Source: a virus
Direction: 5' to 3' (one strand)
Virus record (IMG/VR): IMGVR_UViG_3300008266_000341
Span: 1 to 28,905 of that record
DNA length: 28,905 nt
The position numbers were made by a program, and so were the translations under genes. This document shows, one piece after another, positions 1-26,534 of this stretch. The notes below the pieces were generated by a model. That model did no database searches and was not told the origin of the DNA. It was given only the letters and a program-made list of their open reading frames with translations. Numbering within the stretch: position 1 is the stretch's first letter; each line of letters begins with the position of its first letter.

Positions 1-437
1 GGGCGGCGGAGCGTGCCGCGTCTGCTCCCGTGCCGGCCGTGGCGTCGCTCGATGACGGGACGATCCAGCAGCGCATCGCGAGACAGAACGTCCTGGTCAG
101 TCGTGCGCGTGACGTCTGGCAGGCGGCGATGGAGACGGGCGACCGCGACCAATCCAAGTACCATACGCAGTACAACCAGGCGACCGCCAAGCTCATCGAC
201 CTCGAGGCCGAGGCGGAGCGTCGAGCGCTGATGGCTCGCGAATACATCAAGGCCTCGGAAGCCAAGGAGGCGATGCTTCACCTGACGGGCGAATGGATCG
301 AGGCGATGGAGCGGATGCCCAGCGAGCTCGGCGAGGCGTGCAACCCGAACGACCCGCCCAAGGCCATCGCCGTCTTGCAGGCCTACGTCCGCAAGGTGCG
401 GGAAAAACTCAGCGGCCATGACGAAGCGCAAGCCTAA
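1..437 (+). CDS. Probable terminase small subunit, C-terminal part (5' end outside window)
   Basis: The reading frame is open from base 3 to a TAA at 435-437, so the gene probably enters from upstream; a GTG at 30 is the first possible internal start and would give 135 residues. The visible part is a largely helical, charged protein with long Glu/Arg/Ala-rich stretches and no HTH, as expected for the oligomerisation and large-subunit-binding part of a small terminase. Its role would be to recognise phage DNA and load the packaging motor. The call rests on position, directly before the GpA-type large subunit, not on a diagnostic motif. The missing N-terminus should carry the DNA-binding HTH; the gene cut at the other end of the window ends in one. 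Alternative: an unrelated small coiled-coil protein. Confidence 0.55.
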   Translation, partial: AAERAASAPVPAVASLDDGTIQQRIARQNVLVSRARDVWQAAMETGDRDQSKYHTQYNQATAKLIDLEAEAERRALMAREYIKASEAKEAMLHLTGEWIEAMERMPSELGEACNPNDPPKAIAVLQAYVRKVREKLSGHDEAQA

Positions 438-555
438 GCCAAGGCGCAAGCCGATGCCTAAGCCGACGCGACCGCACAAGGACAAGCGCCGCAAATGGTC
501 GGAGGTTTCAAAGGAGCTGTATCGTCTGCTGAAGGAGGCAGGCCTCTATGACTAA
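418..555 (+). CDS. Small basic Lys/Arg/Pro-rich protein between terminase genes
   Basis: A 45-residue frame starts at ATG 418 inside the end of the preceding gene and stops at TAA 553-555, overlapping the large terminase start (ATG 548). The N-terminal half is extremely basic and proline-rich (repeated K-P, R-K and P-K steps), followed by a short amphipathic helix containing WSEV and LYRLLKEAGLYD. It could bind nucleic acid or act as an HNH-like remnant, but no Cys or catalytic His motif is present. Its end contains the SD site of the next gene, so its translation may be coupled to large terminase synthesis. No family recognised. It is short enough that most gene callers would skip it. Confidence 0.45.
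   Translation: MTKRKPKPRRKPMPKPTRPHKDKRRKWSEVSKELYRLLKEAGLYD
532..538 (+). promoter_or_regulatory. Strong Shine-Dalgarno site of the large terminase gene
   Basis: AAGGAGG lies nine bases before ATG 548 and fixes that start. It is a textbook SD site. This matters because most other genes in the window lack one, so the host does use an ordinary anti-SD sequence at least part of the time. Confidence 0.75.
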
Positions 556-2368
556 GGACGAGCTGCTGGCCATCGGCCGCGAATCCCTGACGCCGCCCGA
601 CAACGCCGACCCGGTCAAGTGGCTGGCGAGGAACATCACCCGCGTCCCTGCCGGTGCTTTCGCCGGCGGTTACAACCCGAGCCGCTGGCCGTGGATCGCG
701 GAAAGCCTGCGCCTGTTCCTCGACCCATCGACGCGGACGATGGTTGACCTCTGGTCGATTCAGACGGGCAAGACCCTGAAGGCACGTCTCGCGGCGACTT
801 ACCTGATGGCCAACGACCGAGGCAACATGGTCATCTACATGGACAACCAGGTGAACGCGGCGGACTTCACGATCCGTTACCTCCGGCCGATGTTCAACAT
901 GGTCGAGGAGGTGCGTCGTCACATCTCGCCGGCTGATAACCCGAAGAGCGACATCATCGACTTTGCGGACGGGACGATCGTCTACAACAACTCGGCCACG
1001 ACGGAGAAGGACTTGCAGCGCATCTCGACGCGGTACGTCATCGGCGACGAAATCTGGCTATGGAAGAAAGGCGCTGTGGCGCAGTCGATGGCCCGAACGA
1101 AGGCCTACGAATGGACGGCCAAGAAACTGTATCTGTCTCAGGCCGGCATGGTGGGCGACGACCTGGACAACATCTGGCAGATGACCACGCAGCACGAATG
1201 GAACTTCGTCTGTCCGCATGAGGACTGCCGCAAGCTCCAGCCCTGGGATTGGGCGTTCGTCCGTTTCCCTGAGCAGGCCAAAAGCCCGGCGGGATGGAAC
1301 CACCTGATGGTCGAGAAGAACACGACCTACGAATGCGCCGGGTGCAAGCGCCACCTCCCCGACACGAACGAGACGCGCATCGCCTGCAACGCCGTCGAGA
1401 ACGGTGCTCAGTTCGTGCAGATGGCCCAGCCTCAGAAGACGGGCTGGGTCGGGACGCACGTCAACGCCTTGGCTTCGACTAGCTGGGGCTCGCTGGCCGT
1501 GGACATGATCAAGAGCAAGGAGGCCTCCGACGCCTACGGCGACGAAGAGGGCCGGAAGATTTTTAAGACCAAGTATCTCGCCATCCCCTGGAGCGACGAC
1601 GGCGGGGCAATGGTAGTCTCTACGGAGTCGTCCGATTACGCGATGGCCGACGACTGGGAGGCCGAGGCCGTGATCACGCCGACGGGGAAGGTCGTCGACA
1701 GGGAGGGAGCGCCGAACGGCAGCATCCCTTTCCGCGTCGTCGGAATCGACGTGCAGCGAGGACACTTCTATGCGGTCGCCCGGAGGTTCGCCAAATCAGG
1801 CCATAGTCGCCTGATGGCGTTTGAGAAGCTGGAGACGTGGCAAGACCTGGACGAGTTCGTCAAGAAAGTTGGAGCCCATAAGGCGATGGTAATGGTGGAC
1901 TCAGGTGACCAGTCCCAACTCGTCTACCAGCAGACGGCGATCCGCGGCTGGAAGTGCTCGAAGGGTTCAGGCGCTGAGACGTTCGCCGTGGGCGACCGGG
2001 ACGGGAACACCGTCCGCCGATTTTATTCGGAGAAGCAGGCCATCCTTGTGCCGGGGACGACGGCTCGCGCGTGGCTCATTTCGTTCTCGAACGTGCAGGC
2101 TAAGGATTTGCTCCACGGCCTGAGGTCGAGGAAGGTCACGACATTCGCCCGGGATGCCTCCCCCGAGTATGTGGATCAGCTCAACTCGGAGGTGCGCGTG
2201 CGTGACCGGCGCACGGGCAAAGCGACCTGGATTCTTCCCCAGGGGAAGCGGGACAACCACGCCCTCGACTGCGAAATCCTTTGCCTGCTGGTCGCCGTCC
2301 GTTGGGGCGTCGTCGGCCGGGAAGCCACCGCGGACGACTTGCAACCCGGGGAAGGTTCGTCAACATGA
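548..2368 (+). CDS. Terminase large subunit, phage lambda GpA type
   Basis: ATPase-nuclease motor that packages DNA into the prohead and cuts concatemers. The 606-residue length suits the GpA family (lambda gpA is about 640). The N-terminal ATPase has a Walker A-like SIQTGKT at residues 70-76 and a Walker B YVIGDE at 163-168. A zinc-ribbon-like insertion follows, with C222/C227 and C263/C266. The C-terminal RNase H-like nuclease has acidic residues D401 (GIDVQ), D451 (VDSGD) and D574 (NHALDCE). The start is fixed by a perfect SD site and by overlap with the preceding small ORF (ATGACTAA). GpA-type motors usually go with cos-type or related packaging, but no cos site could be identified by eye. 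Confidence 0.95.
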   Translation: MTKDELLAIGRESLTPPDNADPVKWLARNITRVPAGAFAGGYNPSRWPWIAESLRLFLDPSTRTMVDLWSIQTGKTLKARLAATYLMANDRGNMVIYMDNQVNAADFTIRYLRPMFNMVEEVRRHISPADNPKSDIIDFADGTIVYNNSATTEKDLQRISTRYVIGDEIWLWKKGAVAQSMARTKAYEWTAKKLYLSQAGMVGDDLDNIWQMTTQHEWNFVCPHEDCRKLQPWDWAFVRFPEQAKSPAGWNHLMVEKNTTYECAGCKRHLPDTNETRIACNAVENGAQFVQMAQPQKTGWVGTHVNALASTSWGSLAVDMIKSKEASDAYGDEEGRKIFKTKYLAIPWSDDGGAMVVSTESSDYAMADDWEAEAVITPTGKVVDREGAPNGSIPFRVVGIDVQRGHFYAVARRFAKSGHSRLMAFEKLETWQDLDEFVKKVGAHKAMVMVDSGDQSQLVYQQTAIRGWKCSKGSGAETFAVGDRDGNTVRRFYSEKQAILVPGTTARAWLISFSNVQAKDLLHGLRSRKVTTFARDASPEYVDQLNSEVRVRDRRTGKATWILPQGKRDNHALDCEILCLLVAVRWGVVGREATADDLQPGEGSST

Positions 2369-2454
2369 AGGCAAGAGGGACGGTTCTGAAGCGTCGAAGG
2401 ATGTGCGCCTTCGGAGGCATAGGGTCGGGGCCGTCCCTCCCACCCGTTGCCTAG
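2365..2454 (+). CDS. Possible 29-residue basic peptide
   Basis: ATG 2365 overlaps the terminase stop in an ATGA arrangement and the frame runs to TAG at 2452-2454. The peptide is Arg/Lys-rich at the front (LKRRRM) and Gly/Pro-rich at the end, with no recognisable domain. Translational coupling is the only positive evidence; the stretch may simply be spacer between the terminase and connector genes. Its last codons overlap a copy of the TTGCC...CCGCAG element. Confidence 0.22.
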   Translation: MKARGTVLKRRRMCAFGGIGSGPSLPPVA

Positions 2455-2462
2455 ACCCGCAG
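2447..2462 (+). promoter_or_regulatory. TTGCC...CCGCAG start-proximal element, copy 1
   Basis: TTGCCTAGACCCGCAG ends four bases (attt) before ATG 2467. The following gene has no SD site. The element resembles the copies at 5454, 6866, 8717 and 12808. Its function is unknown; being this close to the start, it would act in translation or RNA processing rather than as an ordinary promoter. Confidence 0.5.
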
Positions 2463-2466
2463 ATTT

Positions 2467-2736
2467 ATGCAAGGATTGTTCATCGGACTATCGGAAGACG
2501 AGCTGCTGGCCATCAAGACCAAGGCGGTCGAGATGATCATGCAGGGCAAGGTGCTCATGTCCTACGCCGACTCCTCCAGTTCGGCGACGAAGCAGTTCGC
2601 CCTCCCGCCCAAGGAGATGCTTGCGGAAGCCCTTGGCGCGCTCAGCCAGCTCGATCCTGCCAAGTATGGTCGCCGTCGGAACGTGATCAACGTCCGCTAC
2701 GACAACCGTAACAACGACTCTAACTATGGCCTCTAA
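2467..2736 (+). CDS. gpW-like head-tail connector protein
   Basis: An 89-residue protein between the large terminase and the portal, the place of lambda gene W. gpW-type proteins bind the portal after packaging and form the platform for the tail. Two features match that small family (lambda gpW is 68 residues): an N-terminal helix with AIKTKAVEMIMQGK, then a Ser-rich segment around SYADSSSSATKQF followed by a second helix, LAEALGALSQL. The Asn/Asp-rich tail (DNRNNDSNYGL) looks disordered. The gene overlaps the portal start by 11 bases. The ATG follows an ATTTATG context and the CCGCAG element rather than an SD site. Family assignment is by eye. Confidence 0.65.
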   Translation: MQGLFIGLSEDELLAIKTKAVEMIMQGKVLMSYADSSSSATKQFALPPKEMLAEALGALSQLDPAKYGRRRNVINVRYDNRNNDSNYGL

Positions 2737-4276
2737 GTCTACGAAGAAGAAAGTCGTAAAGCCTGCCACCAAGGCGCCGAAGAATCCGGTCATCGCCGGC
2801 GGTCCTGCGCCTAAGCAACAGGCTTACTCGGAAACCTTCGGCGGCGGAGGCTATCCGGCTGGCCCTCGATGGGAAAGCGTGACCCAAAGCAACGGCCGAC
2901 AAATCCTTTACATGGGCTCCAACGTGGACGCCCGTCGCGACCTCCGTTCCCGCGATCGCAACGTGATGGTGCGCAAGTGCCGCAACGCGGAACGCAACTA
3001 CGGGATGTACAACCAAATCCTCAACGACATGGTGTTGTACACTTCGGGAGACGGCATCCGTCCGCAGTCGCACGCGAGCACGCCCGAGGCCGCAAAGGCC
3101 TATGAGGAATACTTCGCAGAGCAGGCCAAGCGCATCGACATCACGAACCGCTTCTCGTTCTACCAGTGCCAGGGGATGCTAGTCCGCGCGCTCATCCGTG
3201 ACGGCGACTGCTTCGCCGCCAAGGTCCGCAACGGCCGAGACGAGGCGAAGATTCAAATAATCGAATGTCACCGAGTGGGCGACCCTGCCGACCGTGACAC
3301 GCCTGACCGATGCTGGGACGGCGTGCAGTTCGGAGAGTACGGCGAGATCGTAGGCTATTACGTCTACCGCTCCGACGGCTCTAGCCGGTTCATGCCGTCC
3401 AACTCCGTTATGCACGTTGTGGACCTTACCTCGTCAAGCGCATCCCGAGGCACTCCTTTGCTTCAGCATTCGGTCAACAGCTTGGCCGATCTCGACGAGA
3501 TCCTCGAAGCCGAGAAACGCGCGGTCAAGGACCAGTCGGAGGTTACGCGCGTCCTCAACAAGGCAGGCGGTTTCATCGACGACAACATGGCGGCCGAACT
3601 AGGCGGCGGAGACCGATGCTACTCCGGCATGGTCGAGCAGGCCGGCGGCAAGCTCATCGTCCTTGAACCCAACGAGAAGCTGGAACATCAGGAATCAAAG
3701 CGACCCAGCCAGACCTTTAACGGATTCGTGACCGAACTTCAGCGGGACATCGCCTTTGGCTCCCTGCCGTTTGAGTTCGTCGCGAATCCTCAAGCCCTGG
3801 GTGGAGCGTCCATTCGACTAGTCACTGCGAAGGCCGCGCGAGTCTTCGGAAAGTATCAGACTGTCATCATCGAAACCTTCTGTCAGCCGACTTGGGATTA
3901 CATCATCGCCGACGGCATCGCCAAGGGACTGATCCCTGACGACCCGCAGTGGTACGTCACGTCCTGGACCACGCCGAAGAGCGTGACCGTGGACGGCGGA
4001 CGAGACGCCGCGAACGACCGCGCCGACGTCGAGCTCGGGCTCCTGAGCATGAGCGAGCTCTACGCCCAGCGAGGCCTCGACTTCAGGACCGAACTCCAGA
4101 AGCGAGCCGACGACATGAACTACGTCATTGGCCTGGCCAAGGAAAAGAACCTCCCCGTGTGGATGCTTTACAAGCCCGGCTTCAACTGGCTTCAGCAGGG
4201 GCAGGCCGTCTCTCAGACTCCGAACGACGTGGCCGAGAATCTCGACCTCCCAACCCCTCCTCCTTCCAACCCCTAA
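2726..4276 (+). CDS. Portal protein, lambda gpB type
   Basis: Dodecameric ring at the unique capsid vertex, the channel for DNA entry and exit and the docking point of terminase and neck. The length of 516 residues is close to lambda gpB (533). The N-terminus is basic and disordered (KSTKKKVVKPATK). The core has the expected helical pattern, including YGMYNQILNDMVLYTSGDGI near residues 92-111, which matches the lambda-type portal style. A Pro/Gln-rich end (VSQTPNDVAENLDLPTPPPS) is probably flexible. The gene overlaps the connector and is followed after five bases by the protease GTG, in standard lambda B-C order. Confidence 0.92.
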   Translation: MASKSTKKKVVKPATKAPKNPVIAGGPAPKQQAYSETFGGGGYPAGPRWESVTQSNGRQILYMGSNVDARRDLRSRDRNVMVRKCRNAERNYGMYNQILNDMVLYTSGDGIRPQSHASTPEAAKAYEEYFAEQAKRIDITNRFSFYQCQGMLVRALIRDGDCFAAKVRNGRDEAKIQIIECHRVGDPADRDTPDRCWDGVQFGEYGEIVGYYVYRSDGSSRFMPSNSVMHVVDLTSSSASRGTPLLQHSVNSLADLDEILEAEKRAVKDQSEVTRVLNKAGGFIDDNMAAELGGGDRCYSGMVEQAGGKLIVLEPNEKLEHQESKRPSQTFNGFVTELQRDIAFGSLPFEFVANPQALGGASIRLVTAKAARVFGKYQTVIIETFCQPTWDYIIADGIAKGLIPDDPQWYVTSWTTPKSVTVDGGRDAANDRADVELGLLSMSELYAQRGLDFRTELQKRADDMNYVIGLAKEKNLPVWMLYKPGFNWLQQGQAVSQTPNDVAENLDLPTPPPSNP

Positions 4277-4281
4277 CTCCC

Positions 4282-5067
4282 GTGCGTTTCCTTTCCCAAG
4301 GCCTCCGAGGCCTCGAGCCTCTCCTCATCAATCCCGTCCGCGCGAAGGATTACGTCGAAGCGTCGAAGGCCGCCGGCCTCGGCGACATGATCGCGCAGCT
4401 CTTCGGCGAATCGCCCAAGCCCTACGTCGTCGGCAACGTGGCGGTCGTCCCGCTGTCTGGCCCCATCGGCAAGGGCGTCTCCCCTGTCGAGCGAATGATG
4501 GGCGCGGCCGACGTTGACGTGGTGTCGGGCTGGCTCGACGAAGCCGCCGAGAACCCCGCCGTGGAGAAGGTTCTTCTCTTCGTCAACTCCCCTGGCGGAA
4601 CGGTCACCGGCGTTCCTGAACTGGCCGCCAAGGTGGCCAACTTCCCGAAGCCGACCCGCGCCTTCGCGGATAACATGGCCGCCAGCGCCGGCGTGTGGGT
4701 GGCCTCGCAGGCTGACGAGTTCGTCGTCACGCCCTCCTCCCAGATCGGAAGCATCGGCGTCTACATGGTCGTCCCGAATCTCGAAGAGTACTACGCCGCC
4801 CAGGGCATCAAGTTTGAGGTCATCGCCGCCGGCGTCCACAAGGCTGCCGGAGCCGAAGGCCTTCCCCTCACGCCCGACCAACGCGCTTACCTTCAGGCCT
4901 CTGTCGAATCGACCCGTGACCAGTTCCGTGCCGCGGTCCGCAACAAGCGCCGCTTCGTGCAGGACGCCGACATGGAAGGCCAGCTCTTCTCGGGTAGCGA
5001 AGCCGCCGCCCGTGGTCTTGCCACCGGCATCGTCCAGAACTTCCGCGAAGCCCTCGCCTCTTTCTGA
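4282..5067 (+). CDS. Prohead protease, S49 / SppA-ClpP-like (lambda gpC type)
   Basis: A 261-residue serine peptidase expected to trim scaffold and portal during head maturation. The GTG at 4282 is chosen because the frame upstream lies inside the portal gene and homologues begin near this point; there is no good ATG. The fold signature is clear: a glycine motif VNSPGGTV at about 101-108, the nucleophile Ser135 in DNMAASAGVW, and the general base Lys187 in AAGVHKAAG, the Ser-Lys dyad of S49 peptidases. The stop overlaps the next ATG (TGATG), so the scaffold-containing gene is translationally coupled. In lambda, the scaffold Nu3 is made from an internal start in gene C; here it is a separate downstream gene. 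Confidence 0.9.
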   Translation: MRFLSQGLRGLEPLLINPVRAKDYVEASKAAGLGDMIAQLFGESPKPYVVGNVAVVPLSGPIGKGVSPVERMMGAADVDVVSGWLDEAAENPAVEKVLLFVNSPGGTVTGVPELAAKVANFPKPTRAFADNMAASAGVWVASQADEFVVTPSSQIGSIGVYMVVPNLEEYYAAQGIKFEVIAAGVHKAAGAEGLPLTPDQRAYLQASVESTRDQFRAAVRNKRRFVQDADMEGQLFSGSEAAARGLATGIVQNFREALASF

Positions 5068-5918
5068 TGTCCGTCCCCGTCCCTGACTACGTTTCCGAAG
5101 CCGCACGGCGCGGCCTTGAGTGGCACGCCGAAGGCAAGTCAGGGGACGGCGTGACCGACCAGACCATCCGCGAGGCTCGCGACATGGTGGCCGGAGAAGT
5201 GTCAGACGACAAGGTCCGCCGCATGGGGCCGTGGTTCCAGCGTCACCGGGCCGACATGGACGCACCCAAGAACAAGCCCGACAACGAAGATTTCCCCGGT
5301 GCGGGAGCCGTGGCCTGGGCGTTGTGGGGTGGACCGACCTCCGGCGACATCATGCGAACCGCCAAGTGGGCCGAAGACGAAGCCGCCCGTCTGGATCGTG
5401 AGGACGAAGACGACGATAATGGTGACGACGACGACCGCTCCGCGTCCGCCAAGTTGCCCACCTCCGCAATTTTTAAGACCATGACCATCGAAGAAAAACT
5501 CGCCGCCGCCGAAGCCCTCGTTGCTTCCGCCTCTGCCGAACGTGACGACCTCCGCGCCACCGTGGAGAAGCTCACCGTCGGCGCTTCCTCGGAAGTCGAA
5601 GCCCTCAAGGTCGAGGCCGCCAGCAAGGACGCCAAGCTCGTCGAGCTCGAAGGCCTCCTCGCCGCCTCCGCCAAACAGGTCGAAGAACTGACCGCCAAGG
5701 TCGCAGAACTCTCGGCCGTCCAGGTCAGCGCCTCGGCCGAAGCCGCGGCCATCGTGGCCAAGGTCGGCGTCGCCGCCGTGGACCTTCCCCAGGGCGACAG
5801 CCCGGTCCGTGCCACGGACAAGGAGATCGCGCAGCAGTACGCCTCGATGCCTGCCGGCCCCGAGCGTCTCGCGTTCCTCAAGAAGAACCGCGCCGCCATC
5901 TTCAACGGCAACAAGTAA
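5067..5918 (+). CDS. Two-part capsid scaffold protein with N-terminal phage morphogenesis domain
   Basis: 283 residues in two halves. Residues 1-100 carry a compact domain with ARRGLEWHAEGKSGDG, a central MGPWFQRHRADMD and AWALWGG, a combination I recall beside prohead proteases in other phages; its role is unknown. An acidic linker follows (DREDEDDDNGDDDD). Residues 139-283 form an Ala/Glu/Lys-rich coiled coil (about 140-235) and a short C-terminal helix with RLAFLKKN, as in scaffolding proteins that bind capsid protein through a basic C-terminus. Position between protease and capsid fits a scaffold. ATG 5481 (M139) is probably also used as a start, giving scaffold alone. The gene starts in a TGATG overlap with the protease. 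Confidence 0.75.
   Translation: MSVPVPDYVSEAARRGLEWHAEGKSGDGVTDQTIREARDMVAGEVSDDKVRRMGPWFQRHRADMDAPKNKPDNEDFPGAGAVAWALWGGPTSGDIMRTAKWAEDEAARLDREDEDDDNGDDDDRSASAKLPTSAIFKTMTIEEKLAAAEALVASASAERDDLRATVEKLTVGASSEVEALKVEAASKDAKLVELEGLLAASAKQVEELTAKVAELSAVQVSASAEAAAIVAKVGVAAVDLPQGDSPVRATDKEIAQQYASMPAGPERLAFLKKNRAAIFNGNK
5454..5469 (+). promoter_or_regulatory. TTGCC...CCGCA element inside the scaffold gene, copy 2
   Basis: TTGCCCACCTCCGCAA, then 11 bases, then the in-frame ATG 5481. Its first 15 bases are identical to copy 3 before the neck gene at 6886. Elsewhere the element precedes genuine gene starts, so its presence here argues that M139 is an initiation site. Within the long ORF these bases encode part of the linker (LPTSAIFKT). 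Confidence 0.5.
5481..5918 (+). CDS. Predicted internal-start product: free scaffold protein (Nu3-like)
   Basis: In-frame ATG 5481 (M139 of the long protein) would yield a 145-residue scaffold consisting only of the coiled coil and the C-terminal capsid-binding helix, without the N-terminal domain and acidic linker. Three things support it: the domain boundary falls exactly here; the start-proximal TTGCC...CCGCA element ends 11 bases upstream with the same spacer style (tttttaagacc) as the tail-tube gene (tttcaaagact); and lambda makes scaffold Nu3 from an internal start in a protease ORF. No SD site is seen. This is a prediction from context. Confidence 0.5.
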   Translation: MTIEEKLAAAEALVASASAERDDLRATVEKLTVGASSEVEALKVEAASKDAKLVELEGLLAASAKQVEELTAKVAELSAVQVSASAEAAAIVAKVGVAAVDLPQGDSPVRATDKEIAQQYASMPAGPERLAFLKKNRAAIFNGNK

Positions 5919-5955
5919 CCCTTTCCCCATCCCCCTAACTTCATCCTAAACTAAC

Positions 5956-6810
5956 ATGTCCAACACCATCGCAGCCCAGCTCATCGTCGATACGCTGGCC
6001 GAACAGTCCAAGACCGTTCTCGCCAACCGCCTCGCCGCCCTCTCCCACTTCGCGTCCGACTTCTCGGGCGACGTCAAGAAGCCGAACGACACCATCCAGG
6101 TCTCGATCGCTTCCGCCACGGCCGCCACTCAGGTCAACCCGACCGCGTTCAACAACATCGGCGGCACGACCCTCTCGGCCACCGCGGTCTCCCTCGACCA
6201 CGTCTACCAGCCCTTCGGCCTGGAGTACTCCGACATCCAGAACGCCATCCGCCTCGAGCGCCTGGTGAAGATCAACCTCGACGCCCTCGCCGACAAGATC
6301 TGGGCTCTCGCCACCGCCCCCATCACCGTCGCCAACTTCGGCGCCGCCACCGTGACCGCCGCTGACTCGGCCGTCACCCCGGGCTCTGCCAACCTCAAGG
6401 CTCTCTGGGCTGGCGTCTCCAAGGCCGGCCGCAAGGCGCTCATCGTGAACCCTGGCATCTACAGCCAGCTCATCCCGACCAGCACCACCAGCCTGCCCCT
6501 CTCCGAAGGCGCTTACGGCTTCGACGGCGGCGTCTACTACGCCTCGCAGTTCCCCTCCGAACTGAAGCTGGCCGGCTTCGCCTGCTCCAGCGACGCCATC
6601 GCGATGGCGGCCGCGGCCCCTTCCCTCGACCACGTCCGCGACGGCATGCTCGTCTCGGAAGTCGTGACCCTCGAGAACCTGGGCATGAACATCTACTACA
6701 ACGTCTGGGCCGACAAGAGCACCCGCTCCCTCGTCGCCTCGGCCGAGCTGATGTTCGGCGCCTCGAAGGCCGTCACCTCGGGCACGATCGCCTCGGTCTA
6801 CAACCCGTAA
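5956..6810 (+). CDS. Major capsid protein
   Basis: A 284-residue protein directly after the scaffold, the usual place for the HK97-fold shell protein. The N-terminal segment is helical (AAQLIVDTLAEQSKTVLANRLAALSHFASDF), followed by alternating beta-rich, Thr/Ala/Val-dense stretches and a C-terminal MNIYYNVWADKSTRSLVASAELMFG, the kind of beta strand and hinge seen before the end of such proteins. Compositional bias is strong, with heavy use of GCC, ACC, GTC and CTC codons, as expected of the most highly expressed phage gene. The leader (taaccctttcccc... to ATG 5956) is C-rich with no SD site. A strong terminator lies 29 bases downstream. The family call depends on context and length. Confidence 0.85.
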   Translation: MSNTIAAQLIVDTLAEQSKTVLANRLAALSHFASDFSGDVKKPNDTIQVSIASATAATQVNPTAFNNIGGTTLSATAVSLDHVYQPFGLEYSDIQNAIRLERLVKINLDALADKIWALATAPITVANFGAATVTAADSAVTPGSANLKALWAGVSKAGRKALIVNPGIYSQLIPTSTTSLPLSEGAYGFDGGVYYASQFPSELKLAGFACSSDAIAMAAAAPSLDHVRDGMLVSEVVTLENLGMNIYYNVWADKSTRSLVASAELMFGASKAVTSGTIASVYNP

Positions 6811-6815
6811 TCGCC

Positions 6816-6830
6816 GGGGCTTAAAGCCCC
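6816..6830 (+). repeat. Small palindrome after the capsid gene
   Basis: GGGGCTTAAAGCCCC is self-complementary (seven pairs around one central A) and lies six bases after the capsid stop. It can form a short hairpin upstream of the main terminator, perhaps protecting the 3' end of capsid mRNA. It has no T tract of its own. Confidence 0.5.
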
Positions 6831-6838
6831 ACCAAACT

Positions 6839-6867
6839 AGACCCCCAGAAATGGGGGTCTTTTTTTT
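6839..6867 (+). terminator. Rho-independent terminator after the major capsid gene
   Basis: Perfect eight-base-pair stem AGACCCCC / GGGGGTCT around the loop AGAAAT, followed immediately by seven Ts. It is the clearest terminator in the window. It would end or attenuate capsid transcripts so that head-completion and tail genes, which are needed in fewer copies, are transcribed mostly by read-through. The T tract runs directly into the next TTGCC...CCGCAG element. Confidence 0.9.
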
Positions 6868-6881
6868 GCCCACCTCCGCAG
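6866..6881 (+). promoter_or_regulatory. TTGCC...CCGCAG start-proximal element, copy 3
   Basis: TTGCCCACCTCCGCAG ends four bases (aagt) before ATG 6886. It shares its first 15 bases with the copy inside the scaffold gene 1.4 kb away. Here it is not in frame with the following gene, so conservation cannot be explained by protein coding. No SD site is present. Confidence 0.55.
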
Positions 6882-6885
6882 AAGT

Positions 6886-7266
6886 ATGAGCCTATACGGT
6901 CAAGAGTTTTTGGACGACGCCAAGGAGATGACCTATGACTTCGGCATCCCGTGCGCCACGGCCGGCTCGACCGTCACCTTCTCGGCCCTCATCTCGGAAC
7001 CCGCCTACACCACCGTCCTCGAATCAGGGGGGTATTGTGAGCGGACCCAGTACACCGTCCGCCTCCCCGCCGCAACGGCCTCCTGGACGAAGCCAGACGG
7101 GTCTAATGGGGCATCGGCGGCCGTCCTCTCAGGGGGCGTCCCCATCCCCGCCCTGGGCATCGGCAAGAAACTGACGGTCGGGGGCAAGGTGGTCCGCGTC
7201 ACCAGCCAGACCTACAAGACCCTTTCGGCTTGGATCACCCTGATCGTCGTTGACGACAACCAGTGA
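6886..7266 (+). CDS. Probable head-closure / head-tail joining protein
   Basis: A 126-residue beta-rich protein directly after the capsid gene, the place of neck proteins such as lambda gpFII. The pattern of strands around STVTFSALISEP, YTVRLPAATASWT, IGKKLTVGGKVVRVTS and AWITLIVVDD fits a small beta barrel of the kind that seals the portal and accepts the tail. The ATG follows a CCGCAG element; the end overlaps the next frame (GTGA). No diagnostic motif; the assignment is from order and predicted fold. Confidence 0.5.
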   Translation: MSLYGQEFLDDAKEMTYDFGIPCATAGSTVTFSALISEPAYTTVLESGGYCERTQYTVRLPAATASWTKPDGSNGASAAVLSGGVPIPALGIGKKLTVGGKVVRVTSQTYKTLSAWITLIVVDDNQ

Positions 7267-8270
7267 GCGCCGACGCCCGAATACTCCCCCGCAGCCGTGA
7301 CGAGTTCATGGCGGCCATCAACCGCTTTTCCATGGGAACGAAGGACGGCCTAATCGACGTCTTCCTGGAGCAGGCCGCCTTGTGCTGCCGCGACTCCATG
7401 ATCTTCACCCCTCCCATCGTGAAGGCCGGCGGCGATGGCATGAGCAAGGACGCAAAGGCCATCGGCGAGAACGCCATCAAGGGAGACGTGCATTCGGTCG
7501 TCGTGGGCCAGCGCTCAGGTTCGACGAACGGCCGCCGCGGTCGCCTGTTCCGCAAGATGGGGACGGCGGCCTTCATGAACAACCCCGCCAAGTTCTGGAA
7601 ACTGGCCACCGAAAACGCCGACCTTCTCGCCGGCGGGGCTAACAAACTTTACGCCCGGATGTTCAATAAAGGCTTCGGAACGGAGAAGTCGTTTAACAAG
7701 CTGAGGAACTACTTCAACCGCATCGGCCAGGAGGAAGCGGGGAATACATTCAACCGCGCCACCATCGAGGAGATGGACGGCATCAAGCAAATTCACGAAT
7801 CCTTCCGCAGGAAGTTCGGGGGACGCATCAAGAAGAACGGCGGTCCTGGTATCAACTTCTTCCAGCGCGTCGAGGCCAAGGACGAAGTCCTGCGCAACTA
7901 TATCAAGATGCGCCAGCGTGCGGTCGGCCGCATCAAGGCCGGCTGGGTGGACGCCCTGGCTAAACTCCCCAAGCCTAAAGGCCTTAGCGGTCCCGCCTCG
8001 CGCAAGAACGCCGGACGCTCTGGCATCCCTGCGTGGATTAAGCGCCACTCAAACTCGGACGGCATCGTGACCATGACACGCCGCGAGGCAGGCGAACTCG
8101 CCTTCGAGCTGAGCGTCGGGAACCGTAACGGCGACAACGATGGCGTTGCAACCGACGCGGACGTGAAGAACCTCGTCTATGGCAACCGCGTAAAGCAGAT
8201 GCCTGCCATGATGGAAGCCATGCTCAAAGCCCACACTGAAAAGTTTAACCGCAAACACGGACTCAAATAA
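7263..8270 (+). CDS. Putative minor tail / tail-completion protein (gpZ-like position)
   Basis: A 335-residue basic protein between head closure and the probable tail terminator, where lambda-like phages encode gpZ or HK97-gp10-type tail completion proteins. The first third has a helix and the phrase CRDSMIFTPPIVKAGGDGMSK, typical of that group, in which a product that must face assembled DNA has a conserved TPP...G segment. The rest is Lys/Arg-rich (FRRKFGGRIKKNGG, HTEKFNRKHGLK) and appears unique. GTG 7263 overlaps the preceding stop as GTGA; an in-frame ATG at 7308, preceded by a CCCCCGCAG stretch, is the alternative start and would shorten the protein by 15 residues. Confidence 0.5.
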   Translation: MSADARILPRSRDEFMAAINRFSMGTKDGLIDVFLEQAALCCRDSMIFTPPIVKAGGDGMSKDAKAIGENAIKGDVHSVVVGQRSGSTNGRRGRLFRKMGTAAFMNNPAKFWKLATENADLLAGGANKLYARMFNKGFGTEKSFNKLRNYFNRIGQEEAGNTFNRATIEEMDGIKQIHESFRRKFGGRIKKNGGPGINFFQRVEAKDEVLRNYIKMRQRAVGRIKAGWVDALAKLPKPKGLSGPASRKNAGRSGIPAWIKRHSNSDGIVTMTRREAGELAFELSVGNRNGDNDGVATDADVKNLVYGNRVKQMPAMMEAMLKAHTEKFNRKHGLK

Positions 8271-8272
8271 CC

Positions 8273-8713
8273 ATGCCCGGAACCACCTCCCCCCGCCACA
8301 TCGTCGAGGCCGTCATCGACTCCTTCCTGACCGCCGAGTCCGGCCTTGCCGGCGTGGCCGTCTACACGGGCGACAGCGCCGAGATCAACGTGCTTCCCAA
8401 GTGCGTGGTCCTATGCGACTCCGCCCGAACCCCTGGCGAACTGCCCGAGGGGGCTGGCAATTATTTCTGCTCCGTCCGCATCACCCTCTTTTCCAACGCC
8501 GACGACACGACCCTATCCGACCACCGCGCCCGGTGCGCCGCGATCGCCGGGGCGATGTCTGACGTGGCCGGCATCAAGGCCGCCTTCGTCGCCGACGGCA
8601 CGGCGCTCTGTTATGACGCCATCCCGGAGTCCGAGGACGAAGGCCGAGACGAGCGCTCCTGGGCGACCGTCCTTTCCTACACCGTCCCGATCGTCGTGAA
8701 CCCGACCCCGTAA
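8273..8713 (+). CDS. Probable tail terminator protein (gpU-like)
   Basis: 146 residues with an alpha/beta layout: N-terminal helix (HIVEAVIDSFLTA), strands around KCVVLCDSARTP and YFCSVRITLFSNADD, a long helix with HRARCAAIAGAMSDV, and a final strand (WATVLSYTVPIVVNP). This order resembles the minor tail protein U / tail-terminator fold that caps the tail tube once it has reached the tape-measure length. It lies between the Z-like gene and the tail tube, as expected. ATG 8273 is two bases after the previous stop; no SD site is visible. Confidence 0.55.
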   Translation: MPGTTSPRHIVEAVIDSFLTAESGLAGVAVYTGDSAEINVLPKCVVLCDSARTPGELPEGAGNYFCSVRITLFSNADDTTLSDHRARCAAIAGAMSDVAGIKAAFVADGTALCYDAIPESEDEGRDERSWATVLSYTVPIVVNPTP

Positions 8714-8716
8714 GGG

Positions 8717-8732
8717 TTGCCCGTTCCCGCAG
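8717..8732 (+). promoter_or_regulatory. TTGCC...CCGCAG start-proximal element, copy 4
   Basis: TTGCCCGTTCCCGCAG followed by the 11-base spacer tttcaaagact and ATG 8744. The spacer length equals that of the copy inside the scaffold gene. The gene could formally start at the TTG at 8717, but ATG 8744 is a better start for a tail-tube protein. Confidence 0.5.
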
Positions 8733-8743
8733 TTTCAAAGACT

Positions 8744-9124
8744 ATGGCTGCTATCCTCAACGGCACTTCCTGCATTTACGGCATCGGCACTGGAACCGTG
8801 GCGAACTTGTTCGTCCAGTCCTTCTCCGTTTCGTCCGGCTTCAACAACGAAGACACCGTCCAGAACGAGGCCGGCATCACCGTCACCCACCGCCTTGACG
8901 ACCGCAAGACGACCCTGTCCATTGACGGCATCTGCAAGACCGGCACTGTCCCCGTGCTCGGCACGACCATTAGCTTCACGACCAACACCTCCTCCGCTTA
9001 CGGCGGCGGCACCGCCTCGACGACCTTCTCGGGAGTGGTGACGAAGGTGGACGAGAAATCCGCTAATAAGGGTTTCTGCTCCGTGTCCATCGAAGCGGTC
9101 GATTACGAAGGCATCACCTATTAA
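8744..9124 (+). CDS. Probable major tail tube protein
   Basis: 126 residues, beta-rich, with repeated Ser/Thr/Gly segments (LFVQSFSVSSGFNNED, GTTISFTTNTSSAYGGGTASTTF) and a last strand GFCSVSIEAVDYEGI. Small, Thr-rich all-beta proteins upstream of the chaperone and tape measure are usually the tube protein, which stacks in rings to build the tail. At 126 residues it is short for this role (lambda gpV is 246 but includes a C-terminal Ig-like domain). Start chosen at ATG 8744 because the upstream codons belong to the start-proximal element. A head-tail connector of similar fold remains possible. Confidence 0.55.
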   Translation: MAAILNGTSCIYGIGTGTVANLFVQSFSVSSGFNNEDTVQNEAGITVTHRLDDRKTTLSIDGICKTGTVPVLGTTISFTTNTSSAYGGGTASTTFSGVVTKVDEKSANKGFCSVSIEAVDYEGITY

Positions 9125-9158
9125 TTGACACCGCCCCGAGAGGGGTAGCATCAAGGGC

Positions 9159-9770
9159 GTGGACGGAAGATTCCTACGCGCCTTCACTGATCCGACGGCC
9201 AAGGTTAAAATCCTTGGTCGTTCTGTTTATCCCTTTTGCCTGAAGTACCGCGTCAGGCTCATGGCCATCGAGTCGCCCCTGGTCACAGGTAAGACCGAAC
9301 CCACTCCGCTCGACCTGTTGACCGCGGTCAAGATATGCGCCGAGGAACCGATCGGCGAGCTGGATTCGTCCGAGGTCGGGCTGGTGAAGCACCTGGACAA
9401 ACACCCGGGCAAGTTCCTGACCGAGGTCGAGCGCTTCGGGGAATACTGCATGATAAGCTGCTGGCCTAAGTTCTGGGATACGCCCGAACACAAGAAGGCC
9501 TCGGCCGAGGACGCCGGCATCCCTTGGCCCCTGATAGTGGTGGCCTCATTGATAAAGCAGGGGATAGAAGAAAAGAGGGCATGGGAAATGCCCGAGTGTC
9601 AGGCCATATGGCTTAACGCCGCCTGGGCTGCGGCCGCCGGCTCCGAGTCAAAACTTCTGACCACCGATGAGGAGGCCTTCATGGAGGAGCAGGAGAAGGC
9701 CGAAGCGGCCGCCAAGGTTGCCTCCTCCGCAGAGGTAAAGAACACCGAGAACAATGGGCCAAAAACTTGA
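9159..9770 (+). CDS. Putative tail assembly chaperone
   Basis: A 203-residue protein placed between the tube and tape-measure genes, as tail assembly chaperones (lambda gpG/gpGT) are. The protein is helical with an acidic, Ala/Glu-rich C-terminus (EEAFMEEQEKAEAAAKVASSAEVKN broken by Ser and Asn), typical of chaperones that coat the tape measure. GTG 9159 is preceded by AAGGG with very short spacing; no better start is apparent. Unlike lambda G/GT, no convincing slippery heptamer or downstream -1 extension is visible. The last 17 bases overlap the tape-measure start in another frame. Confidence 0.55.
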   Translation: MDGRFLRAFTDPTAKVKILGRSVYPFCLKYRVRLMAIESPLVTGKTEPTPLDLLTAVKICAEEPIGELDSSEVGLVKHLDKHPGKFLTEVERFGEYCMISCWPKFWDTPEHKKASAEDAGIPWPLIVVASLIKQGIEEKRAWEMPECQAIWLNAAWAAAAGSESKLLTTDEEAFMEEQEKAEAAAKVASSAEVKNTENNGPKT

Positions 9771-10971
9771 ATATGAACTAAAGGGAAAGTCCGACGTCGA
9801 ACAGGTCACAGGCCGTGCAAAGAAGTCGGTCGAGTCCCTGGGCGACTCGTTCAAGAAGGCCGGCAGCGACATCGGCAAGAAGATCGCGGGGATGTTCGCG
9901 GCGACCGTCCTCTTCGACAAGGCGCTGAGTTTCCTGACGAACACGTTCCGCCAGCTCGGGGAAGTCTCCGATCAGGTGGACCGAAGCGGCCTGTCGGCCG
10001 AGCAGTTCCAAGGGCTGGCCTATGCCGCGCAGCAGTCCGGCGTGTCCGTCTCCGTCCTGGCCAAGGCGACCCGTCAGCTGCGCGTGGACATGGCCGAAGC
10101 GGCCGCCGGCACGGGCAAGAAGGTGGAGATGTTCAAGGCCTTGGGCATCACCCTCGAACAGCTGAAGTCGGGCGACGCGACGGCAGTCTTCCTTGCCATC
10201 TCCGCGGCGCTAGGCGGCGGGGCTGACGACTCCGAGCGACTGCTCATCACGACCGCGCTCTTCGGCGACAAGATCGGCAACGACATCCTCCCTCTCCTGG
10301 CCGACTTCGAGAAGCTCCAGAAGGACATCGCCGACGCCCCCATCGTGGACGCAAAGACCCTCAAGGCAATCGGCGAGTACAACGACGGCATGGACCGGCT
10401 GAACGCCAGCATGGTCAAGCTCGCCGCCAGTTTCATCAACGTCTACGACAAGTACAACAAGTGGGTGCAGAAGATCACCGAGGACGCGGCCACTGGTGTT
10501 TTTAACTTCCTCAACAGGTTCGGCCTTGGCGGTGCTGCCTCCGACGCCGTAAGCGGTGCGCTGTCCATCGGTCCGTCTGGCGCGCTGGTCGCTATGGGTG
10601 CGGACGGCTCGACAACGCCGACAGGCCGCGGAACTCCGGCCAATACGGCCAACCGCTCGAAAGCCCTGCTCGACGCCATCAAGGCGTCCAAACCTACGAC
10701 AGAAAAAGAAAAGGCCGCCGACACCAAGGCAGGCTCTTCCAGCCTTTCCAACGTGGGAGGCAACGTGATCGGCGTCGGCCAGAACCCGGTCGTCACCGCC
10801 CTCCAGGAGCAGCAGGGCATCGCCCTCCAACAGCTCAGCGTTCTTCAGCAGATCGCGGCAAAGTTCGGATATCAAGCCAGCGTCCTGGACATCACGGCCT
10901 CAGGCGCAACTCCGTTCACCCCTGCCAACTCCTCAACCAACCGCAGCGCAACCGTCACTAAGACAAAATAA
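9754..10971 (+). CDS. Tape measure protein (short)
   Basis: A 405-residue helical protein. The N-terminal part (MGQKLEYELKGKSDVEQVTGRAKKS, here in two pieces either side of residue 15) has the repeating hydrophobic pattern of tape-measure starts, with a membrane-like or amphipathic segment IAGMFAATVLFDKALSFL at about 48-65. Central helices contain the phrase LSAEQFQGLAYAAQQSGVS, typical of phage tape measures. The C-terminal third is Ser/Thr/Pro-rich and then Gln-rich (ALQEQQGIALQQLSVLQQIAAKFG). The protein sets tail length at roughly 1.5 angstrom per residue, so about 60 nm here, short for a siphovirus. It overlaps the chaperone gene by 17 bases. Confidence 0.75.
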   Translation: MGQKLEYELKGKSDVEQVTGRAKKSVESLGDSFKKAGSDIGKKIAGMFAATVLFDKALSFLTNTFRQLGEVSDQVDRSGLSAEQFQGLAYAAQQSGVSVSVLAKATRQLRVDMAEAAAGTGKKVEMFKALGITLEQLKSGDATAVFLAISAALGGGADDSERLLITTALFGDKIGNDILPLLADFEKLQKDIADAPIVDAKTLKAIGEYNDGMDRLNASMVKLAASFINVYDKYNKWVQKITEDAATGVFNFLNRFGLGGAASDAVSGALSIGPSGALVAMGADGSTTPTGRGTPANTANRSKALLDAIKASKPTTEKEKAADTKAGSSSLSNVGGNVIGVGQNPVVTALQEQQGIALQQLSVLQQIAAKFGYQASVLDITASGATPFTPANSSTNRSATVTKTK

Positions 10972-10974
10972 CAA

Positions 10975-11820
10975 ATGGCTATCGTAAAATTTGGTAACGA
11001 CCTGACCGGGAAGTTCGTCCAGCCAGGAGGCTCGTTCACGAACGACGGCTACGGCCTGATGACCGCGCGTGCCACCTACATCGTGGACAAGTCGGTCGGA
11101 GGCACTGCGGTATTCACTGGTCAGGTGCATCCTGATTACACCGACTTCTTCGTGCACAAGTTCAACCTCAGCCGCGGGGCTTTGGAGTTCGACACGATTG
11201 ACGCGGAATACGTCGGCATCGACAGCGCCGTGGGCAGCATCACGAACCCGAACGTGACGGCCTCGCACGGCCTGACCTCGGAGCACATCACGACCCACCC
11301 CAATTTCTTCGGTCCTGCCACGGGCTTCACCACGTCCATCGCCGGCGACGGAACGACCTTTACGGCCTCCACCATCAACGTCGAGGAAAGGGTGGGAGGA
11401 GTATTCGGCGCCCACTTCAAGGGGACGGCCACGAACGCCGGCGGCTTCGTCGGCTTCAAGGATTCCAGCACGGCGTCGAAGCAATACTATTACGGCAAGA
11501 CCCATTACCTGTCCCCGATCACTTCGTTCTCCGGCGTCATCTACACGAAGAACCTGGGCGACGTCACGACCATCAAGAACGCCGTCGGCAAGACGTCCGC
11601 AGACAATAACTTCGGAGGCATCAAGCTGCTGCCTGACCACATCGGCACGACGTGGACGGCCACGGTCAAGGGAACGGTCCGCAACACCATCCTCCTTTCG
11701 CAGGCCTCCTTCGAGGATTACTGCGTGCTCTCCGGCGGCACGCCCAAGATCGTCAAGATCAACTACGAAATCCGCTTCAACCGCGAAGGCTACCCGGCTG
11801 AAGTCTACGCCAGCGTATGA
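10975..11820 (+). CDS. Tail protein of unknown function, first after tape measure
   Basis: 281 residues, strongly beta-rich with many Gly/Thr/Phe residues (AGDGTTFTASTINVEERVGGVFGAHFKG). There are two aromatic segments: YYYGKTHYLSPITSF and the C-terminal KINYEIRFNREGYPAEVY. Its position directly after the tape measure is where siphoviruses encode the distal tail protein or tail-tip hub. No family recognised. The start is ATG 10975 after aacaa, with no SD site; the stop overlaps the next ATG (ATGA). The length and lack of a hydrolase motif argue against a tail lysin. Confidence 0.5.
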   Translation: MAIVKFGNDLTGKFVQPGGSFTNDGYGLMTARATYIVDKSVGGTAVFTGQVHPDYTDFFVHKFNLSRGALEFDTIDAEYVGIDSAVGSITNPNVTASHGLTSEHITTHPNFFGPATGFTTSIAGDGTTFTASTINVEERVGGVFGAHFKGTATNAGGFVGFKDSSTASKQYYYGKTHYLSPITSFSGVIYTKNLGDVTTIKNAVGKTSADNNFGGIKLLPDHIGTTWTATVKGTVRNTILLSQASFEDYCVLSGGTPKIVKINYEIRFNREGYPAEVYASV

Positions 11821-12389
11821 ACCTCCAACCTGGCGCCGGCTACGGCTTCACCTCCAGCGGCTACGGTATCAGCATAGACTCATCCAATCCTTTCCCGGAC
11901 GACACGGCTCGTCCTAGCACGCCGTTTTATGTCATCGTCCTGGGGGTTGTCTCCGGGGGCTTGCGCTATCAGGTAGTCAGCGGGACGTTGAACAACTTGG
12001 TCCCAGAGATGGATGACGTCGTGTCTTCCACTGAGATGCTCCTCGACCATACGACGGCAGGCGTCCCGACCCCTCCGACAGGCGTGCTCTCCATCAGCTC
12101 CTCGACCAAGGAGTCGTGGGTGTACCTCAGGGCCGGCGCCGACACGGCACCCCCTTACGATTTCCCTGACGCGAACATCACTAACGTGGCTTACCCTAAG
12201 GTCATATCGTCCGACCTCGAATTGTCCGACACTGATACCGAGGGGTATGTCCTGCTCGCCAAGGTGAGCGTTGACAACGCAAGCTCCCCGACGACCTGGA
12301 CGGTTTTCAGGTACGTCTCAAACTCCCTCTGGGGCGACCGCATCAAACTCGGGACGAATACCGCCCGGTACTATTACGCCCGAATCTGA
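11817..12389 (+). CDS. Tail-associated protein of unknown function
   Basis: 190 residues, ATGA-coupled to the preceding gene and itself overlapping the next by one base. It is Ser/Thr/Pro-rich and beta-like, opening with a Gly/Tyr/Ser-rich stretch (GAGYGFTSSGYGISIDSS) followed by strands such as FYVIVLGVVSGGLRYQVVSG. The C-terminus is aromatic (NTARYYYARI). Composition resembles tail-tip or baseplate wedge proteins that carry receptor-binding parts. No known family identified. Confidence 0.5.
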   Translation: MNLQPGAGYGFTSSGYGISIDSSNPFPDDTARPSTPFYVIVLGVVSGGLRYQVVSGTLNNLVPEMDDVVSSTEMLLDHTTAGVPTPPTGVLSISSSTKESWVYLRAGADTAPPYDFPDANITNVAYPKVISSDLELSDTDTEGYVLLAKVSVDNASSPTTWTVFRYVSNSLWGDRIKLGTNTARYYYARI

Positions 12390-12787
12390 TGGGAGAGATG
12401 ATCGGACAAGGGAGCGGTCCTTCGACCTGGGCGCAGCTTCGAGACGTTGTCTCGAACGGTGGTTCGGCTACGTTCGGAAGCCACAATTCGGTCTATTCTT
12501 CCGGCGGTGGATGGTTCAAGACCATCGAAGGCAACGGCCTGCTTAGGCGACGAACAGAAGCGTCTGGCCCTGAACTGTTTTTCTCTGAGGCCACGGCCCC
12601 GGTCGAGGACTACTTTGCATTCTTCGGCATGGCAGACCCTTATCCCGTGCAGCTCGTAGGCAGGACGGTGGCGACTAGCACCAGTTCATTCACCATCATC
12701 GCGGATGCTTTCACGATCGGACAGCCGGCCGGGCTTAACGGCACGTCCCCGATCACCAGCGTCGAATGGTTTGAGCCGTTGCCCTGA
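12389..12787 (+). CDS. Small tail-associated protein of unknown function
   Basis: 132 residues, Ser/Gly-rich at the start (SGPSTWAQLRDVVSNGGSATFGS is the longest visible low-complexity stretch), then mixed beta. Two ATGs lie nine bases apart; the second (12398) has GGGAGAG directly before it, too close for a standard SD spacing, so the first, coupled to the previous stop (TGATG), is preferred. It shares the size and composition of its neighbours and is probably a tail-tip component. No family recognised. Confidence 0.48.
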   Translation: MGEMIGQGSGPSTWAQLRDVVSNGGSATFGSHNSVYSSGGGWFKTIEGNGLLRRRTEASGPELFFSEATAPVEDYFAFFGMADPYPVQLVGRTVATSTSSFTIIADAFTIGQPAGLNGTSPITSVEWFEPLP

Positions 12788-12807
12788 AAGCCAAGGTCTT
12801 TGACGGG

Positions 12808-12823
12808 ATGCCCGACCCCGCAG
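12808..12823 (+). promoter_or_regulatory. TTGCC...CCGCAG-type element, copy 5 (ATGCC variant)
   Basis: ATGCCCGACCCCGCAG followed by 14 bases and ATG 12838. The first T is replaced by A, which creates an ATG that automatic callers would take as the start. The flanking GGG before and TTTT after match copy 4 (GGG-TTGCCCG-TT-CCCGCAG-TTT). Confidence 0.42.
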
Positions 12824-12837
12824 TTTTAGACCTGCTT

Positions 12838-13158
12838 ATGGCCGACACCGTCACGATTTCCCAAGGCAACACCTTCGCCGCCACGTTCACTTGGACGCCT
12901 GGGGCGACCGGCCCTGCCAACCTCACGGCCACGACCTTGACCTCTTCCTTCGAGGACAAATGCGGCCACGTCTACGAGCTCGACATCGCCAAAGCCCTTG
13001 ACGGTCTGTCCTTCGTCGTCAGCTACGCAGGCTCGACCGCGGACTGGTCGCTCGGCCTCGGCCGATGGGACATCAAGTTCGTCTTTCCCGGCACGCCGTC
13101 CACGGTATCGCGCACGGAAATCTTCCGGGTCCAGGTCATCGAATCCGTCACGGAATAA
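12838..13158 (+). CDS. Small beta-rich tail protein before the fibre
   Basis: 106 residues beginning MADTVTISQGNTFAATFTW, an opening that resembles N-terminal domains of baseplate upper proteins in which a first strand is followed by a polar loop and a second strand. Later strands include AKALDGLSFVVSYAG and GRWDIKFVFPG. ATG 12838 is preferred over ATG 12808 because the intervening bases belong to the start-proximal element; the longer form would add ten residues. It lies directly upstream of the fibre gene and probably anchors or assembles the fibre. Unknown family. Confidence 0.5.
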   Translation: MADTVTISQGNTFAATFTWTPGATGPANLTATTLTSSFEDKCGHVYELDIAKALDGLSFVVSYAGSTADWSLGLGRWDIKFVFPGTPSTVSRTEIFRVQVIESVTE

Positions 13159-18632: not shown

Positions 18633-18890
18633 ATGAACCAAGAACCCACCGACATCGTCACCATCGGGGACAGGCCCATCCGCCTGACCCGCCCGGTCCT
18701 CCCCCACGCCGCTCGCCGTCTGGCTGGCGTGCTCCCGCAGCTCAACGCCCTGAACGCCGCCGGCAAGTCGCAGTCCGACGCGGCCGCCGCCCTCGGCGTT
18801 TCGGTCGGCTCCATCCGCACGTGGATCGGGCTGGCCGGTATCTCATGGTCGAACCTCAACCGCCGCGGTCCGTACAACCGCCAGAAGTAA
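18633..18890 (+). CDS. HTH protein
   Basis: 85 residues with a helix-turn-helix at about 46-66 (KSQSDAAAALGVSVGSIRTWI), of the kind seen in transposase-like and sigma-region-4-like HTHs. Upstream is a helix (AARRLAGVLPQLNALNA). The C-terminus is basic (NRRGPYNRQK). It probably binds DNA and may regulate phage transcription. ATG 18633 follows the leader TTCCCAACCCAAACCGCAC. Next to a second HTH gene (18896), five bases after its stop. No metal-binding or catalytic residues are seen. Confidence 0.65.
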   Translation: MNQEPTDIVTIGDRPIRLTRPVLPHAARRLAGVLPQLNALNAAGKSQSDAAAALGVSVGSIRTWIGLAGISWSNLNRRGPYNRQK

Positions 18891-26243: not shown

Positions 26244-26534
26244 ATGGCCAAGTCAAAGAAGAAGATGCTCTACACCCGCGTCGGCAACGACCCGGTCCTG
26301 CTCGCCGTGATGGCCGAGATTAACCGCAGCGCCGTGAAGCCGCCGAAAGGCTTCCTCACCCGCGACCAGTGGGCGGCCAAATGGAAACTCAAGGCCGGCC
26401 ACACGGCCAGCATCTACATCAAGAAAGCCCTCGCGATCGGCGCCCTGGTCAAGGCTCGTTACCGAATCCTGATAGGCAAAAGCAAACGGCTCCGCGCCGT
26501 GGACCATTACGGGCCACCGCCCCGCAAGCGGTAA
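26244..26534 (+). CDS. Small basic winged-helix-like protein
   Basis: 96 residues, Lys/Arg-rich at both ends (MAKSKKKM...KSKRLRAVDHYGPPPRKR). The middle contains FLTRDQWAAKWKLKAGHTASIYIKKALAIGALV, a helix-helix-strand order reminiscent of a winged helix, in which HTASIYIKKALA would be the recognition helix. A DNA-binding role before the helicase, for example as loader or origin-binding factor, is possible but unproven. Start ATG 26244, four bases after the previous stop. Confidence 0.55.
   Translation: MAKSKKKMLYTRVGNDPVLLAVMAEINRSAVKPPKGFLTRDQWAAKWKLKAGHTASIYIKKALAIGALVKARYRILIGKSKRLRAVDHYGPPPRKR

Follow-up and report, generated by a model that had tools for sequence, protein, structure and literature searches.

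In the window, by which we mean the whole 28,905-base IMG/VR virus record that was analysed, a short element with TTGCC as its left box and CCGCAR as its right box constitutes a nucleotide-level signal that is specific to virion genes, is kept at homologous gene starts in relatives and is absent elsewhere. Judging from its position and geometry, we propose that it acts as a lineage-specific late promoter that would give leaderless or short-leader mRNAs in these phages, and we assign this reading a probability of about one half.

The virion module found in the window is that of a siphovirus-like phage. Gene calling relied on a simple codon-usage caller. Family searches identified the terminase, portal, S49-type head protease and tape measure; the scaffold, major coat and tail tube genes are assigned from their position, not by family match. 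The major coat protein had no relatives among 50,697 annotated phage records, and the terminase is 24% identical to that of phage P8625, which was cultured together with IMCC8625 and is the sole cultured Verrucomicrobia phage found in the collection. Since relatives of the coat protein occur in genome collections on MAG contigs labelled Verrucomicrobiota, Opitutia, Chthoniobacter and with two other labels, we consider a bacterium of the Verrucomicrobiota to be the probable host; contigs in bins give weak evidence on this point.

An earlier note had listed five copies of the element, and their sequences, coordinates and CAG-to-ATG spacers were all reproduced on re-checking (Table 1). Its argument that some copies lie out of frame with the following gene is right: the distances from the start of the element to the ATG are 20, 27, 20, 27 and 30 nt at 2447, 5454, 6866, 8717 and 12808, respectively. 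The exact pattern TTGCCYNNNYCCGCAR had four matches in the window, all on the plus strand and directly before virion genes, compared with none in 100 shuffles, and thus is not equally common within genes or in shuffled sequence; the fifth copy, at 12808, begins with ATGCC instead of TTGCC. With two mismatches allowed, 15 matches were found versus 13.8 expected in the window, which is the chance level, so that loose matching masks the signal revealed by the exact form. The element is followed by a mostly T-rich tract and a fixed pyrimidine–purine (Y-R) step, and genes with overlapping stop and start codons mostly lack it.

Table 1. Element sites and other features of the window (site sequences are given as left box-middle-right box + following bases)
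Feature	Position	Strand	Sequence or description	Gap to ATG	Putative +1	Context
Site A	2447..2466	+	TTGCC-TAGAC-CCGCAG + ATTT	4 nt, ATG 2467	A of ATG, 2467	89-aa gene preceding the portal gene
Site B	5454..5474	+	TTGCC-CACCT-CCGCAA + TTTTT	11 nt, ATG 5481	A, 5475	scaffold-like gene, then major coat gene
Site C	6866..6885	+	TTGCC-CACCT-CCGCAG + AAGT	4 nt	A of ATG, 6886	
Site D	8717..8736	+	TTGCC-CGTTC-CCGCAG + TTTC	11 nt, ATG 8744	A, 8737	putative tail-tube gene (by position)
Site E	12808..12827	+	ATGCC-CGACC-CCGCAG + TTTT	14 nt, ATG 12838	A, 12828	gene preceding the tail fibre gene
Site F	9718..9736	+	TTGCC-TCCT-CCGCAG + AGGT; 4-nt middle	21 nt, ATG 9754	A, 9737	end of gene 9159-9770, upstream of the tape-measure gene
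Terminator-like hairpin	6839..6866	+	intrinsic-terminator-like hairpin + T-run; 9 pairs, 6 GC			behind the major coat gene, abuts site C
ORF	5067..5918	+	spans site B and continues in frame into the scaffold-like gene			follows the protease gene
Winged-HTH-like protein	26244..26534	+	96 aa; candidate partner			between phosphoesterase and DnaB-like helicase genes
Two small helix-turn-helix proteins	18633-18890, 18896-19333	+	further candidate regulators			

In the window, site B lies within a long in-frame ORF, but it falls between genes in relatives such as L009, L012 and L014; the additional gene upstream is missing from relatives such as L009. As this ORF is continuous with the scaffold-like gene, the internal start at 5481 is expected to yield the scaffold as a separate protein, similarly to lambda C/Nu3.

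For the analysis of conservation, 80 relatives were fetched by coat protein; they are mutually related and do not represent independent samples. The core pattern occurred in them 128 times in the forward and once in the reverse orientation, and nearly all forward copies precede homologous virion genes of the ~45 closest relatives, which keep the core at these starts. Core identity was 95–100% per site (18–25 unique sequences), versus 61–89% for the 30 bases upstream, 60–89% for the flanks and 75–87% for the middle, and upstream flanks fell to 61% identity where the core was at 99–100%. A scan with a class-balanced matrix, built from aligned relatives and applied to five close genomes, separated true sites cleanly from other matches: intact close genomes gave five sites each with scores of at least 20.9, the next best match scoring at most 13.8, and G004, which is truncated, gave four. 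The reverse strand was without true sites. At one end of G001, a long contig of a relative, ~9 kb is unrelated sequence; this part was excluded from the scan. In L084 (positions 1–9300; the record of L005) we observed a ~9-kb end apparently unrelated to the phage, with low complexity, different codon use and repeated QQYVT-like motifs, which is likely to reflect a chimeric assembly.

Across all of IMG/VR, the extended motif was found in this phage family only, except for a few single matches outside it (L106, L108, L111 and L112). It was not enriched in MAGs holding relatives of the phage, and a host signal was rejected on this ground.

The earlier note had also pointed to weaker look-alikes at 9718 and 7276. 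The latter is missing from the matrix scan and is no site, whereas the former is a genuine sixth site (F), conserved in 23 unique relatives with the same 21-nt gap to the tape-measure gene. Within the coding sequence that it overlaps, the site F codons GTT, GCA and GTA are kept in 23, 23 and 22 of the 23 unique relatives, and neighbouring third positions vary; these codons are rare, accounting for 5%, 7% and 3%, respectively, of the codons for their amino acids in the same relatives. Retention of rare codons among varying third positions indicates that site F is under selection at the nucleotide level, even though its gene could be translationally coupled.

Among the relatives, the gap between element and ATG is 4 nt at sites A and C, 11 nt at B, 11–12 or, in some relatives, about 38–43 nt at D, 4–14 nt at E and 21 nt at F; B, most copies of E and the short form of D together span 10–14 nt. 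A pyrimidine and then a purine occupy positions 4 and 5 past the element in 30/30 unique spacers of sites A, C, D, E and F; at site B the step comes one base later (6/6 unique spacers). At sites A and C this purine coincides with the first base of the ATG, and at such sites the step is partly imposed by the start codon; in a far clade described below, a C or T precedes the start in 32/32 cases. Bacterial transcription starts usually prefer a Y-R step. The terminator-like hairpin that abuts site C is also present in window-clade relatives, and T-runs or terminator-like hairpins lie upstream of site C in G041, in G042–G044 and in the far clade.

The absence of Shine–Dalgarno (SD) sites at the element, as previously remarked, stands but is not unusual: some members of Verrucomicrobia are listed as SD-scarce (PMC10783764), so the missing SD sites look host-like. 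Several early-gene starts of the window (16970, 17216, 18273, 18633, 21409 and 23305) follow a C/A-rich run, e.g. CCCAACCCAAACGCAC-ATG, which is possibly a second start-associated motif.

Other lineages carry other words at the same gene starts. In a sister clade with ~70–75% coat identity, AACC-[TTACC or CGAACT or TTCCC]-spacer-CAATAG-TAT stands before the same genes, and related-genus forms at these starts read CTTACC/CGAACT-N7-CAATAG or TTGCCAATN4GCARG. In G041, TTGCCAATNNNNGCARG lies upstream of A–E. In G042, G043 and G044, as many as five starts have the exact 15-mer TTGACTCCCGCGTTG, with no further copies on either strand; it is placed 4 nt from the ATG at A, C and E and 17–22 nt at B and D, and N3-Y-A always comes next. 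A more distant clade has TTTGACA-N13-RTG upstream of many starts. The type of left box was uniform across all sites of a genome in 67/69 loci versus a permuted mean of 41, a difference whose significance is overstated because the relatives are not independent. In different lineages, the copies have thus been rewritten all together. That copies within a genome agree and sites change together suggests a reader acting in trans; recognition by a phage or host factor, as envisaged in the earlier note, is probable on the same evidence.

In the far clade (L046, L048 and L052–L082; e.g. L046 6303), many virion genes have TTTTGACA upstream of their GTG/ATG at a distance of exactly 13 nt. GTG starts are unusually frequent there, and a consensus palindrome CACGCC-N6-GGCGTG spans the start codon. 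A covarying hairpin was considered and rejected, since arms shuffled among sites paired equally well (4.09 vs 4.06 of 6), which points to a consensus palindrome and not to a structure. A stretch resembling the far-clade TTGACA motif, TTGACACCGCCCCGAGAGGGGTAGC, is found at 9127–9159 of the window between the tail-tube gene and GTG 9159, with a similar stretch in G001.

In the late promoter that we propose, the two boxes, 15–16 nt in total, would be read on DNA as a unit, and transcription would begin at the purine 5–6 nt past the right box, right after the pyrimidine. Sites A and C would give mRNAs starting at the ATG; for sites B, D, E and F, leaders between 6 and about 38 nt long would result. 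Every site would stand at the front of a set of virion genes coupled in translation, and at site C transcription would resume right past the terminator that follows the major coat gene. Specificity would be conferred by a trans-acting factor, encoded by the phage or the host, and a change of this factor between lineages would shift all sites together. Observed directly are the element with its conservation, strand and positions, the Y-R step, the terminator-like hairpin and the versions of the lineages; we infer a role in transcription, the location of the 5′ end and a protein reader. Several points count against a promoter: the element fits none of the recognised promoter classes, a mere 5 nt separate its boxes, the Y-R step is off by one at site B and the middle of site F is 4 nt long.

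The earlier note had favoured a translation-start or an RNA-processing signal. If a long late transcript were instead cut at the Y-R step past the element to release leaderless or short-leader mRNAs, the fixed geometry would be just as good a mark of a 5′ end; site F, moreover, sits in a transcribed coding region. However, we found no conserved RNA structure. The UUGC/GCAR stem comprises 3–4 bp at most and is missing from the homologous sister-clade element (TTACC...GCAA), for which reasons an RNA hairpin was rejected, and the element matches no Rfam family. Cleavage also leaves the terminator-like hairpin abutting site C unexplained; this hairpin directly upstream of the site, together with the Y-R step, makes a transcription start better supported, and we regard RNA processing, which heads the alternatives, as unlikely. 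A signal for translation initiation in the SD-scarce host group (PMC10783764), recognised by ribosomes or by some translation factor, would account for the position of the element always shortly upstream of starts, for its scarcity at overlap-coupled genes and for the far-clade gap of often exactly 13 nt. It fits poorly with an ATG distance of 4, 10–14, 21 or about 38–43 nt, where the Y-R step is fixed instead of the ATG, and with the lack of enrichment in MAGs, and we rank it after RNA processing, as improbable. Pairing with stretches CUGCGG and GGUAA, which we take to belong to h45 of 16S rRNA, was judged to be due to chance, the order being wrong for a simultaneous duplex.

An asymmetric element in a single orientation, uniform within a genome and containing the partial inverted repeat TTGC-N8-GCAR, might also be expected of an operator or stoperator on which a phage DNA-binding protein keeps late genes off or blocks elongation, and the phage encodes several small HTH proteins. 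Yet the sites are limited to late starts, a roadblock has no need of a Y-R step 4–5 nt downstream, and neither repressor nor lysogeny genes were recognised in the window; this reading ranks below the two preceding ones and seems quite improbable. That the element is a functionless leftover of shared ancestry or module recombination is very improbable. The family is mosaic, as G004 illustrates, and sites lie at module borders, but the contrast between core and upstream flanks, the rare codons retained at site F and the different sequences that different genera have at the same places appear to have largely refuted it. Compared with all of these, the late promoter remains our preferred reading.

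The search for a reader gave leads of unequal value. Phage RNA polymerase had no match in the 23 records searched, in which the control was likewise silent, leaving the search without a positive control; a T7-like promoter, suggested by CAATAG/CTAAAG look-alikes, was rejected as no polymerase gene was found. No member of an RNA_pol or sigma factor family was recognised among the window proteins, and the window has no ORF longer than 606 aa. A candidate is the winged-HTH-like protein (Table 1), whose syntenic counterpart in other element types is a two-domain protein that diverges fast; in several of these types it lies between the same two neighbours (L237 6005–6502; L248 8802–9260). Neither it nor these counterparts matched a Pfam family above the cut-off, and the window protein matched its longer syntenic relatives weakly, with E-values of 0.03–0.05. 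Between TTACC and CGAA types the protein is 26% identical, versus 80–92% for the neighbouring genes. The correlation with element type is broken by G004, where early genes of CGAA-like type accompany a TTGCC late region, and by G041, which has a TTGCC element and a TTACC-like protein; we therefore treat this gene after the phosphoesterase gene as no more than a lead to the partner, and it may be a replication protein beside the helicase. The combination in G004 also argues against a factor encoded by early genes. G004 (L026/L090/L091) looks like a natural recombinant, with the late region of the window clade and early genes ~90% identical to a CGAA-type sister lineage; the junction lies near the tail fibre gene and may be an assembly chimera.

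Literature searches found no description of such an element for these phages. In function it appears closest to the Start-Associated Sequences (SAS) of cluster K mycobacteriophages, repeats of unproven function that are absent from the host, have an AGGAG core able to pair with 16S rRNA and accompany non-structural genes at a distance of 3–7 nt from the start (PMC3203893, which also names the stoperators of cluster A). Both are short, asymmetric, single-orientation repeats just upstream of many starts and are kept at homologous genes. The window element nevertheless falls outside the SAS because it lacks the SD core AGGAG (TTGCCYNNNYCCGCAR), heads virion-module genes at all sites and is not confined to 3–7 bp from the start codon (4 to ~43 nt); it further differs in its fixed Y-R step. 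Cluster A mycobacteriophage stoperators are short asymmetric sites in one orientation that are bound by the phage repressor. For the window element no repressor is identified, and its sites are few, restricted to late genes and fixed in geometry relative to a possible 5′ end. Phage late promoters may depend on a phage-encoded specificity factor, as in the T4 gp55 type. The element resembles these as a short lineage-specific signal heading late operons, with a phage factor as the proposed reader, and differs in that the window phage has no recognised sigma-like protein and the element has two boxes at about −20 to −5 and no TATA-like −10. Sigma-70 promoters (TTGACA-N16-18-TATAAT) had one candidate in the region (shuffle mean 1.7), and none at a site. 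Sigma-54 promoters carry GG/GC at −24/−12 with fixed spacing; in the element, the spacing from GC to GC falls short of this by one, and at site F by more. P8625 (NC_029047) is similar in that TTGACA and then an inverted repeat stand immediately ahead of virion genes such as gp08, gp15 and gp22, and dissimilar in sequence and spacing, with TTGACA 30 nt before the ATG; the paper on this phage does not discuss promoters. In the P8625 record (L104), TTGACA or TTGACC with an imperfect GTATCC...GGATAC-type inverted repeat was observed just before virion genes at 5448, 10772, 15594 and 17541.

A bolder and more tentative proposal, drawn from the sequences compared here, is that the element represents a new promoter class with recognition at about −20 to −5, no −10 box and a Y-R start that is often the A of the ATG, such that Verrucomicrobiota phages would make leaderless late mRNAs and a fast-evolving phage factor would have rewritten all sites. 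Almost nothing is known of late-gene expression in phages of Verrucomicrobiota, an abundant freshwater phylum. If our reading is true, annotators would gain expression signals that mark true start sites and operons, and there would be a lead to the specificity factor. The lineages would provide a natural series in which a single regulatory code has been rewritten into at least five versions, all placed at homologous positions; the finding would also suggest that leaderless or near-leaderless late mRNAs are widespread in a host group in which SD sites are scarce.
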